Source of the DNA: Halorubrum tebenquichense DSM 14210
GTDB taxonomy: Archaea > Halobacteriota > Halobacteria > Halobacteriales > Haloferacaceae
Length of the DNA: 64,000 nt
Direction of reading: 5' to 3'
NCBI RefSeq assembly: GCF_000337415.1
Contig: NZ_AOJD01000061.1
Coordinates: forward strand, 1 to 64,000
Within the stretch, counting starts at the first letter, position 1. Each line of letters starts with the position of its first letter. The notes under the pieces were generated by a model that worked only from the letters and a program-made list of their open reading frames with translations, did not search any database and had not been told where the DNA came from. Below, one piece after another: positions 1 through 62,684 of the stretch. The translations under genes were made by a program, and so were the position numbers.

Positions 1-65
1 GACTCCCTCGCGCGTGCTCCTCGCGGCCGCCTTCGGCGGCACGCTCGCAGGCACGCGCCACCGCA
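1..65 (+). repeat. 3' fragment of dispersed structured element (copy C)
   Basis: This stretch matches the 3' end of the element found in full at 42642-42882 and 62152-62417. It keeps the outer inverted repeat GCGCGTGC (10-17) and GCACGCGC (51-58). Inside is a hairpin GCCGCC-TTC-GGCGGC (26-40), where the other copies carry different but also self-complementary sequences. The conserved 3' end CACCGCA falls at 59-65. The 5' part lies outside the window. It lies about 100 bp upstream of mvaD and reads in the same direction. Confidence 0.75.
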
Positions 66-42587: not shown

Positions 42588-42612
42588 GACCACCGAAGCC
42601 CCGGCCGGGAGG
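42588..42612 (+). repeat. Truncated 5' copy of the structured element head
   Basis: A 25-bp segment (GACCACCGAAG plus the following GCCCCGGCC and GGGAGG) is repeated exactly at 42642-42666, 54 bp further on, where the full element begins. It looks like a partial duplication of the element head. The DNA between the two copies carries the TATA-like GGCTATACGC (42611-42620) used by the full copy. Confidence 0.8.
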
Positions 42613-42620: not shown

Positions 42621-42641
42621 AGTCACTCTTGTCCCGACAGA

Positions 42642-42882
42642 GACCACCGAAGCCCCGGCCGGGAGGCGGGCGCACGCTCGCTGCGCTCCTCGCTCAGTCG
42701 CTAACGCTCCTTCGCTGTGGTGCTTACGTCGCCTGCGCCCGCCTCCCGGCTGCCCCTTCGAGTCCCGCCCCGCACAGCAACCGCACCTCACGCCCCCCCA
42801 GCCTCGTCGCTCACTCCGTTCGCGACTCCCTCGCGCGTGCTCCTCGCGGCCTGTCGGCCGCTCGCAGGCACGCGCCACCGCA
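42642..42882 (+). repeat. Dispersed structured element, copy A (candidate structured RNA)
   Basis: About 241 bp between the engB and enolase-like stop codons, with no credible ORF. Order: conserved head CCGAAGCCCC (647-656 of the 42 kb block); arm GCCGGGAGGCGGGCGCA (42658-42674); loop starting CGCTCGCTGCG and ending CGTCGCC; perfectly complementary arm (42734-42750, 17 bp); conserved GCCCCTTCGAGTCCC; then GCACCTCACGCC and CCCCAGCCTCGTCGCTC; then an outer stem GCGCGTGC/GCACGCGC (42833-42840, 42868-42875) enclosing GCGGCC-TGTC-GGCCGC. Copy B (62152-62417) and the edge fragment (1-65) share the blocks but have different stem sequences that still pair. A TATA-like box 28 bp before the head suggests transcription as an RNA. 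No family known to me. Confidence 0.75.
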
Positions 42883-54302: not shown

Positions 54303-54348
54303 ACGGTCCCGTCGGCCGGGAGGGGGATAAACGCGTCCCCGGGGTGGT

Positions 54349-54467
54349 GCGCTCCGCCGTCGGACGCGCACCGCCGTTGGACGCGCTCCGCCGTCGGACG
54401 CGCACCGCCGTTGGACGCGCTCCGCCGTCGGACGCGCACCGCCGTCGGACGCGCACCGCCGTCGGAC
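54349..54467. repeat. 17-bp tandem repeat, seven perfect-length units
   Basis: Unit GCGC(T/A)CCGCCGT(C/T)GGAC repeats seven times without gaps (54349, 54366, 54383, 54400, 54417, 54434, 54451), followed by a degenerate eighth to about 54486. Units 1-5 alternate a CT form and a CA form, suggesting 34-bp duplication steps. It fills the divergent promoter region between DUF5789 and UspA. 17 bp is not a multiple of 3, so it is not a coding repeat, and units are contiguous, so it is not CRISPR. Confidence 0.95.
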
Positions 54468-54521
54468 GCGCACCGAGCCGTCCGACGGGGTCGACCGCGA
54501 GAAACCGGCAAGAACCGCAAA

Positions 54522-60152: not shown

Positions 60153-62036
60153 CTACGACCGCTTCCCGATCTCCTCGCGCAACACGTCCGAGACGACCTC
60201 GCCGTCTGCCTTCCCGCGGAGCGCGCCCATCGCCTCGCCCATCAACCCGGAGAACGCGCCCATCCCCTCGGCCTCGATCTGGTCGGCGTTGCGCTCGACG
60301 ACCTCGACGACCGCCTCGCGGACCTCCGCTTCGCTCACGCCCGAGAGGCCGGCCGCTTCGACGGCCTCGGCGGCGGACAGCGACGGGTCCTCCGCGAGCG
60401 TCGTCAGCACCTCCGGGACGCCCTCCTTCGCGAGGTCGCCGTCCTCGACGAGGTCGAACAGCGCGAGGAAGTGGTCGTCGGTGAGGTTCTCGACCGGCGC
60501 GCCGTCGCGCCGGATCTCCGTCGTCGTCGATTCGAGGGTCGACGCCGCGAACGTGGGGTCGACGCCGCGTTCGACCGCGGTCTCGAACAGCGGGAACCGC
60601 TGACCGAACGCGACCTGCTCGGCGAGGCCGGCGTCCAACCCGAACTCGTCGGCGTACCGCTCGGTCTTCTCGTCGAGCAGTTCGGGCGTCTCGACGTCCG
60701 AGGGGTCGGGCTCGACCGGCGGCACGTCCGTCTCGGGGTACATCCGCGCGGCCCCCGGCAGGGGGCGGAGGTACCGCGTCGTGCCGTCGTCGTTCGCGCC
60801 GCGCGTCTCCTCCGGGACCCCCTCGATGGCCGTCTCCGCGCGCTCGGCCGCGGCCTCGATCGCGAGGTCGGCGGTCTCGGGGTCGGCCGCGACGATGGCG
60901 ACCGCGTCCTCGTCGCCCGCGCCGACCGCGTCGCGCAGCGCCGCGACTTCCGCCTCGGTGACGCCGTACGCCGGCAGCTCGTCGGTGTGGAAGACGCCGC
61001 CCGCGCCGTGGCGCTTCGCGTGGTCGGAGAACTCCGTGCCGAGCCGGCGGTCCGGCTGGATCTCGCGGCCGACGAGGCCGTCGAAGCCGTAGAGCGGGAC
61101 CGCGGTCACCTTGCCGCCCGAGTCGAGCGCGCCGCGGATGACGCCCGACTCGGTGTCGGCGAAGACGTCGGTCACGTCGGAGACGTCGCCGACGCTCGCG
61201 TCGCGCTCCCGGAGCTCGTCGCGGATCGCGAGCAGTTCGGCCTGCCGACCCACCTCGCCGCGGACGATGTCCTCGATCCCCTGGAGGTCCTGAACGCCTT
61301 TCACCTCGACGCGCGCGCCGTCGGCGATGGAGACGTTCACGTCCTGCCGGATCGTCCCCAGTCCGCGCTTGACCGCGCCCGTCGAGCGGAGCAGCATTCC
61401 GATGCGCTCCGCGGCCTTCCGAGCCCCCTCGGGGCTGCGGATGTCCGGTCCGGTTCCGATCTCGACGAGCGGGACGCCGAGGCGGTCCAGCGAGTAGACG
61501 ACGCCGTCGTCGGTCTCCTCGACGCGCTTCGCGGACTCCTCTTCGAGCATGAGGTCGACGACGGACACCGACCCCGACTCGGTCTCGATCTCGCCGTCCT
61601 GTCCGAGCAGGATCGAGCGCTGGAAGCCGGAGGTGTTCGAGCCGTCGATGACGAGCTTCCGCATGACGTGGGCCCGATCGACGACCGAGAGGTCGAGCAG
61701 GTCGGCGATCTGGAGCGCCACGGCGAGCGCCTCGTCGTCGACGCGGCGCGGCGGCTCGTCGTCCTCCTCGACGAGGCAGGTGGTGTCGTACGCGAGGTAG
61801 GTGAACTCGCGGTCGACGCGGCTCTCCTCCATCGCCGCGTCGTCGAGTTCGCCGAGTTCGCTCTTCGTCGGGTGAAGCTGCCGGGTGATCGACCGGTCGG
61901 CCTCCTCGGGGTCGCGCTCGACGGTCGGGGAGTCGCAGAACAGCTTCGTCTCCGTGTCGAGCTGCTGGTGGATCTCCAGGCCGGCGACGAGCCCAAGCTC
62001 CTCGTAGTCGTACTCGGGGGTCGCGTCCGTACTCAT
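60153..62036 (-). CDS. gatE: Glutamyl-tRNA(Gln) amidotransferase subunit E
   Basis: Archaea-specific GatDE amidotransferase subunit, 627 aa. It binds misacylated Glu-tRNA(Gln), phosphorylates and amidates it to Gln-tRNA(Gln) using ammonia from GatD. The N-terminal cradle domain (ELGLVAGLEIHQQLDTETKL, FCDSPTVERDPEEADRSITR) and the GatE/AspRS-like insertion (VEVKGVQDLQGIEDIVRGEV) are clear, as is the C-terminal YqeY-like tail (EVVERNADQIEAEGMGAFSG, GLMGEAMGALRGKADGEVVS). The GatD partner is not in the window. A TATA-like CCCTTTTAGTCG on the reverse strand (62062-62073) supports the start. Confidence 0.95.
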   Translation of the reverse strand: MSTDATPEYDYEELGLVAGLEIHQQLDTETKLFCDSPTVERDPEEADRSITRQLHPTKSELGELDDAAMEESRVDREFTYLAYDTTCLVEEDDEPPRRVDDEALAVALQIADLLDLSVVDRAHVMRKLVIDGSNTSGFQRSILLGQDGEIETESGSVSVVDLMLEEESAKRVEETDDGVVYSLDRLGVPLVEIGTGPDIRSPEGARKAAERIGMLLRSTGAVKRGLGTIRQDVNVSIADGARVEVKGVQDLQGIEDIVRGEVGRQAELLAIRDELRERDASVGDVSDVTDVFADTESGVIRGALDSGGKVTAVPLYGFDGLVGREIQPDRRLGTEFSDHAKRHGAGGVFHTDELPAYGVTEAEVAALRDAVGAGDEDAVAIVAADPETADLAIEAAAERAETAIEGVPEETRGANDDGTTRYLRPLPGAARMYPETDVPPVEPDPSDVETPELLDEKTERYADEFGLDAGLAEQVAFGQRFPLFETAVERGVDPTFAASTLESTTTEIRRDGAPVENLTDDHFLALFDLVEDGDLAKEGVPEVLTTLAEDPSLSAAEAVEAAGLSGVSEAEVREAVVEVVERNADQIEAEGMGAFSGLMGEAMGALRGKADGEVVSDVLREEIGKRS

Positions 62037-62151
62037 TACGCCTCACTCCGACGCGGCGCGACTAAAAGGGTGGCAGTTCGCGCGAACGGTGACCGATTGT
62101 CAGGATGAGGCCTAGATTCCGCTGACCACGGAGTGATATATAAATGAACGA

Positions 62152-62417
62152 TGCGGTGGCGCGTGCCGACGAGCGCCCGGAGGGCGTGAGTCGCACGCGC
62201 GAGGGAGTCGCGAGCGGGTGGGCGACCGAAGGGAGCCCAGAGCGAGCGACGAGGCTGGGGAGGTGTGAGGTGCTGTGCCGTGCGGTTCGGGGTGGGACTC
62301 GAAGGGGCAGCCGTGAGAACGCCGGAGGCGACGCAAGGACCGCAGGAACGAGCGGAGCGAGTGACAAGGACCGCAGCGAGCGTCCGGCGTTCTCACGGCT
62401 GGGGCTTCGGAGGTGTT
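62152..62417 (-). repeat. Dispersed structured element, copy B (candidate structured RNA)
   Basis: About 266 bp on the minus strand between gatE and tRNA-Leu, without a credible ORF. Conserved head CCGAAGCCCC at 62410-62401 (reverse); arm AGCCGTGAGAACGCCGGA (its reverse complement at 62383-62400, partner at 62309-62326), a perfect 18-bp hairpin; conserved loop ends; GCCCCTTCGAGTCCC; then the outer stem GCGCGTGC/GCACGCGC at 62193-62200 and 62159-62166 with inner CGCCC-TCC-GGGCG. Compared with copy A, six of 17 stem pairs differ and every one is compensated. A TATA-like CTTATAAG (62441-62448) lies about 30 bp upstream. Confidence 0.75.
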
Positions 62418-62440: not shown

Positions 62441-62448
62441 CTTATAAG
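62441..62448 (-). promoter_or_regulatory. TATA-like box upstream of structured element copy B
   Basis: CTTATAAG is centred about 27-30 bp upstream of the element head, matching copy A (GGCTATACGC) at a near-equal distance. Confidence 0.45.
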
Positions 62449-62599
62449 CAAGCGGCTGGCGAGTAGTGGCTATTCAAGGTCACCCTACGCAATCGCATGC
62501 GGTCGAGTAACCACTCGTCGGGTAGCGTTCGGAAGGAATTGTGCGTGGGTGCTGTCGTAGAGACAACACCGTGCATCGTTCGGGGGTGGACCCCTGCGA

Positions 62600-62684
62600 T
62601 GCGTGGGACCGGATTTGAACCGGCGGACCTCTACAGGACAGCGCCCTCAACGCTGCGCCGTTGGCCTGGCTTGGCTACCCACGC
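62600..62684 (-). tRNA. tRNA-Leu, anticodon GAG
   Basis: An 85-nt class II tRNA on the minus strand. Acceptor GCGTGGG pairs with CCCACGC, with discriminator A. Anticodon stem CAGCG/CGCTG with loop TTGAGGG gives GAG. A long variable arm follows (TCCTGTAGAGGT region), then the T arm GGTTCAAATCC. No intron is seen. A reverse-strand TATA-like GCTTTTAATCTG lies at about 62721-62732. Confidence 0.93.

Follow-up and report, generated by a model that had tools for sequence, protein, structure and literature searches.

A dispersed intergenic element of Halorubrum whose conserved sense-strand fold may act as RNA

The 64-kb window analysed here, by which we mean the whole stretch of 64,000 nucleotides, comes from a Halorubrum genome and holds two full-length copies and one 5' fragment of a repeated element (Table 1); window base 1 is the first base of the contig, which cuts the third copy short. 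Copy B, which drew the original prediction, has as its neighbours gatE (PF02934), which starts at 62036 on the minus strand, and a minus-strand tRNA-Leu(GAG) gene at 62600-62684. As predicted, it is a full copy. The repeated element is dispersed, non-coding, intergenic and about 255-265 bp long, and no coding capacity was seen in it. With a covariance model built on the 3' domain, P3 (model R1), the true copies in the window reach 115 bits (B) and 113 bits (A), and no other match there scores above 18.9. An outer stem common to all three copies had also been proposed, and the pair GCGCGTGC/GCACGCGC (gap 18-45) indeed occurs exactly three times in the window, at 10-58, 42833-42875 and 62159-62200, against a shuffle expectation of 0.02, with three never reached in any shuffle. 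The window also carries a 17-bp tandem repeat array, GCGC[TA]CCGCCGT[CT]GGAC, at 54332-54492.

Table 1. Copies of the element in the window, with their parts and flanking features.
Feature	Position	Strand	Evidence or remark
Copy B, full length	62152..62417	+	nhmmer E 1.4e-59; HMM core 62154-62414
TATATAAA, directly 5' of copy B	62137..62144	.	TTWAWA box near same spacing in 50/220 copies
P1 as a whole, copy B	62159..62200	+	
P1 outer stem, copy B	62159-62166/62193-62200	+	sequence, fold, pair counts
P1 variable 3-bp stem, copy B	GAC 62168-62170/GTC 62190-62192	+	sequence, fold, pair counts
P1 tandem GA, copy B	62171-62172/62188-62189	+	sequence, fold, pair counts
P1 inner hairpin with GGA loop, copy B	62173-62187	+	sequence, fold, pair counts
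P2 variable hairpin, copy B	62207..62250	+	closed by GTCGC/GCGAC, GA/GA on flanks
Conserved motif CGAGGCTGGGGAGG	62250..62263	+	almost unchanged across 80 copies
P3 long imperfect stem, copy B	62300..62409	+	R1 match 62294-62411, 115 bits; covariation within and across genera
P3 base, copy B	CGAAG 62300-62304/CTTCG 62405-62409	+	
P3 GGG/GGG internal loop, copy B	62305-62307/62402-62404	+	inner stem with tandem GA mismatches
3' tail of copy B	62441..62459	+	CTTATAA, then partial repeat of P3 3' arm (GCGGCTGG)
Copy A, full length	42640..42882	-	nhmmer E 5.5e-56; P3 at 42646-42766, R1 113 bits
Partial tandem repeat of P3 3' end, behind copy A	42588..42612	-	
Third copy, 5' fragment (P1)	1..63	-	nhmmer E 5.4e-06

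Read along its sense strand, the element comprises a P1 hairpin, a P2 hairpin, a G-rich linker and a long stem, P3, interrupted by a GGG/GGG loop and by tandem GA mismatches, and copy B folded as RNA reaches -154.5 kcal/mol (z -4.6). The hairpin enclosed by the outer stem of P1 had been said to differ among the three window copies while pairing in each, which sequence and fold bear out: in element orientation it reads GCGGCC-GACA-GGCCGC in copy A, GCGCCC-GGA-GGGCGT in copy B and GCCGCC-GAA-GGCGGC in the edge fragment. The letters first quoted mixed the strands, those of copy A and the edge fragment being minus-strand, but the pairing holds once all are placed in element orientation. Likewise, the inner and outer hairpins are both real, but the description had missed a variable 3-bp stem, of which copy A (TGC/GGA) pairs only two of three positions, and an invariant tandem GA/GA, both lying between them.

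The original prediction called for a survey of the hairpin across copies and held that copies lacking the inner pairing would speak against it. In an alignment of 80 copies (A1), pairing in the helices of P1 and of the inner hairpin runs at 89-95%, and it is missing only in a few copies whose 5' module has been replaced, L125 and L169 among them. Several haloarchaeal loci (L125, L169, L213, L295, L148, L161, and others; regex matches in 10 loci) share a second module with structure, built around CAGCCCGCGCAGCG...GAGCAGGACCGTCTTC, and this module sometimes replaces or interrupts P1/P2 of the element. RNAalifold predicted 49 pairs from the 80 copies, 29 of them changed on both sides, while 94.1% of cells are paired in a hand-curated structure of 53 pairs. 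Double-changed cells in this structure number 508 vs 138 in shuffles, an excess that kinship among the copies inflates, and covariation stands at 0.334 vs 0.124 in shuffled and at most 0.064 in slid controls, the latter leaning in favour of a structure derived from the sequences it was tested on. Across genera, P3 is 97.1% paired, with a covariation of 0.579 vs 0.184 in the control. The fold is thus supported by covariation beyond both shuffled and slid controls, as is looked for in a structured RNA, and pairing that is kept despite differing hairpin letters points, on sequence evidence, to an RNA-like shape under selection.

The mismatches within the fold bear on the strand that matters. Among the 80 copies, GA/GA is kept in 76 in P1, in 78 at the base of P2 and in 78 and 69 at its two places in P3, and the GGG/GGG internal loop is kept in 79, the adjoining pair being A-T in 50 and G-C in 27. 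Neither motif is palindromic, and the opposite strand, with TC/TC and CCC/CCC, would not make the same motif. In addition, G.T cells outnumber A.C cells (81 vs 36), although the p of 4e-5 assumes independent cells, which these are not. Together, these conserved non-palindromic mismatches and the excess of G.T over A.C favour a single-stranded, sense-strand fold over a plain palindrome. Since the antisense strand folds nearly as well (mean z -4.50 vs -4.94 for sense), folding energy does not decide the strand. Of the earlier preference for a structured RNA over a simple insertion or palindrome, it is the single-stranded sense fold that these strand-specific features support; folded single-stranded DNA would leave much the same signature.

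The element is abundant: stretches of its own genome totalling 0.59 Mb contain 20 near-full copies and stretches of a close relative (G016) totalling 0.80 Mb contain 27, a density of about 34 per Mb in each case, and extrapolation from these unbiased stretches gives about 110 copies per genome. Two queries returned at least 44 and at least 42 matches in its own genome, with 40 of about 200 candidates scored. It is present in all 34 sampled Halorubrum congeners; among named contigs, a conserved 21-base pattern of the element falls mostly in Halorubrum species, plus Haloparvum, Halobellus and Halorussus, where the CGAGGCTGGGGAGG motif of copy B is also present. Of 146 Halobacteriales genomes searched with R1, 102 have the 3' domain, as do 41 of the 56 genera, and several genera have one to three good copies each, there often as the P3 domain alone. 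No Rfam 15 family reached its gathering threshold over the element, and the best weak matches of a permissive Rfam search were chance miRNA models with E-values of 1 and above. The phage collection gave no match and the plasmid collection four weak haloarchaeal ones. The open-access literature, searched by words and by sequence, yielded no description of the element; the family in a satellite survey (PMC6749651) is not the same, and a paper on vesicle RNA (PMC10927574) has no connection to it. Outside Halorubrum (G058, G036 and G041; loci L295-L324), P3 was seen in back-to-back inverted pairs at several loci (L300, L308, L316, L319, L322). The near-identical single P3 copies L457 (G045) and L458 (G087) match downstream and differ upstream, and the point where they part may be the element's true 5' boundary.

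All 47 unbiased copies lie clear of predicted genes. Relative to 598 baseline gaps, copies are depleted from divergent gaps (4/47 vs 219/598, p 4e-5) and enriched in convergent ones (14/47 vs 72/598, p 0.003), these biases being approximate in size, as a simple codon model was used to call genes and every gap of at least 100 nt entered the baseline. The element keeps away from divergent promoters and prefers the 3' ends of genes. The remaining 29 of the 47 lie in tandem gaps (307/598 in the baseline), 20 antisense and 9 sense to the upstream gene (p 0.06); the copies take no fixed orientation relative to the upstream gene, a poor fit to a sense-strand 3'-UTR element of that gene. The REP/BIME sequences of enterobacteria are intergenic, high-copy and hairpin-bearing, and prefer gene 3' ends and convergent gaps. 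The present element is like them in all these respects, depletion from divergent gaps and enrichment at 3' ends included, but it is archaeal, about 265 nt long and built of three domains with tandem GA mismatches, and no RAYT-type transposase was seen at its copies.

While the positions of the element are stable, its content is not. The site of copy B holds the element or part of it in 27 of 30 Halorubrum genomes, with two empty (G018, G020) and one rearranged, the site behind the copy A gene is filled in about 17 of 29 readable genomes, and for 18 of 20 testable elements of the own genome G016 has an element at the corresponding site. Among 24 orthologous pairs with at least one flank 90-98% identical, only six show the element identity expected of orthologues (0.947-0.996), and 16 fall below 0.917, the 95th percentile of random element pairs (mean 0.875). 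The hairpin stems come mostly from a limited set reused between copies; stepwise intermediates, GCGCCC/GGGCGC, GCGCCC/GGGCGT and ACGCCC/GGGCGT, are also present. Some copies have inverted inner segments, extra hairpins or a lost P3, with P3 lost or inverted in L211, L218, L219, L221, L224 and L228, and single copies are thus dispensable. In three of these, at the copy B site (L211, L218 and L228, in G073, G030 and G003), the inner P3 is inverted relative to its arms, an arrangement that a flip during recombination or template switching could produce. Given the reuse of stems and the scrambling of orthologous copies against their flanks, exchange of hairpin cassettes is likely the main source of variation; ectopic gene conversion from copy to copy, rather than independent point compensation, probably accounts for much of what differs among the hairpins. 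The claim of an independent region of compensated variation accordingly stands in part: pairing-preserving changes lie far above controls, but, given the scrambled orthologues, inner inversions, extra hairpins and lost P3, the hairpin differences are not all independent compensatory mutations, and with stems reused "independent" was too strong. Haloarchaea are polyploid, which may aid such ectopic conversion between copies, and cassette exchange of this kind would change the letters while the fold stays.

The element belongs to an undescribed, haloarchaea-wide family of dispersed intergenic elements with one conserved sense-strand fold, and we give even chances to the reading that this fold acts as RNA. 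The fold would most likely act as a structured segment in transcripts running past gene 3' ends, where it may be a stable, protein-binding or processing/termination element and a functional analogue of enterobacterial REP/BIME. P3 would be the older core, which some genera have on its own in one to three copies; amplification in Halorubrum would have involved the longer P1+P2+P3 form. The fuller history, in which a P3-core structured RNA found across haloarchaea was extended and amplified in SINE-like fashion to more than 100 position-stable Halorubrum copies, which keep exchanging cassettes by ectopic gene conversion while selection preserves the sense fold, is put forward tentatively. If the RNA reading is true, unannotated structured RNA with relatives in most haloarchaeal genera makes up nearly 1% of Halorubrum genomes, at about 34 copies of 255 bp in each Mb. 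The more than 100 natural variants per genome would then show which pairs and mismatches the RNA needs, and copies at fixed sites would serve as a gauge of ectopic gene conversion in polyploid archaea.

RNA-level function is our leading guess, and its main rival is a non-autonomous mobile element using folded single-stranded DNA. The PATEs of Haloquadratum walsbyi are palindrome-associated transposable elements explained by their relation to IS605 ends (PMC3119063), and an element of this type would have to fold as single-stranded DNA to be acted on in trans by a transposase, its copies now being mostly old and immobile, which we regard as possible though somewhat doubtful. The present element is likewise haloarchaeal, too short to encode a transposase, non-coding and present in many copies, with palindromes near both ends (P1 close to the 5' end, P3 at the 3' one) and no terminal inverted repeats or target duplication (PMC3119063); sites with and without a copy exist, albeit with boundaries that are not clean, broken copies suggest selection on the family and not on each site, and single-stranded DNA would also give sense-strand asymmetry. 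However, no link to IS605-type ends was found: the own genome contains four TnpB genes and a single Y1 transposase gene (Y1_Tnp), which adjoins TnpB genes on contig C77, and an IS605 origin gained no support, none of these five loci carrying element ends. No ORF-bearing version was found, positions are common to the whole genus with content scrambled by exchange, and P3 forms a long, covarying internal fold far more elaborate than an IS605 end hairpin. The SMRs and MITEs of Haloquadratum are also short, non-coding and dispersed, but have terminal inverted repeats (PMC3119063), which are lacking here both in the consensus and at polymorphic sites, where no clear target-site duplication was seen either. 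On the RNA side, conserved intergenic sRNAs of Halobacteria with function unassigned have been described (PMC7002113), which the element resembles, by description, in being intergenic, conserved in several haloarchaeal species and of predicted structure.

It is unlikely that the element works as double-stranded DNA, as a binding site for a protein of the nucleoid, of replication or of termination or as a cruciform that such a protein recognises, with its hairpins kept by template switching or inverted-repeat homogenisation. Even dispersal and enrichment between convergent genes, as in REP/BIME, would fit this, as would the flipped segments between inverted arms in some copies, which template switching would give, but correction of a palindrome would erase the strand-asymmetric GA/GA and GGG/GGG mismatches. 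The excess of G.T over A.C cells also counts against it, and the listed positions, judged by eye only, show no strand polarity along the G016 chromosome. That each copy is a small RNA gene in its own right, driven from its own promoter, is very improbable: a TATA-like TTWAWA box does lie 12-20 nt upstream of about 50 of 220 copies, and a second behind the 3' end of many, but the box is absent from most copies, and at this spacing transcription would begin inside P1.

Many copies are followed by a tail unit of 57-63 nt that contains TTTATAA and is sometimes in tandem, and no solo tail units were found away from elements. Behind one element of the close relative (G016:C1:452489-452763), five copies of this unit stand in tandem at exactly 63 bp spacing, a small satellite that has arisen from the 3' arm of P3.
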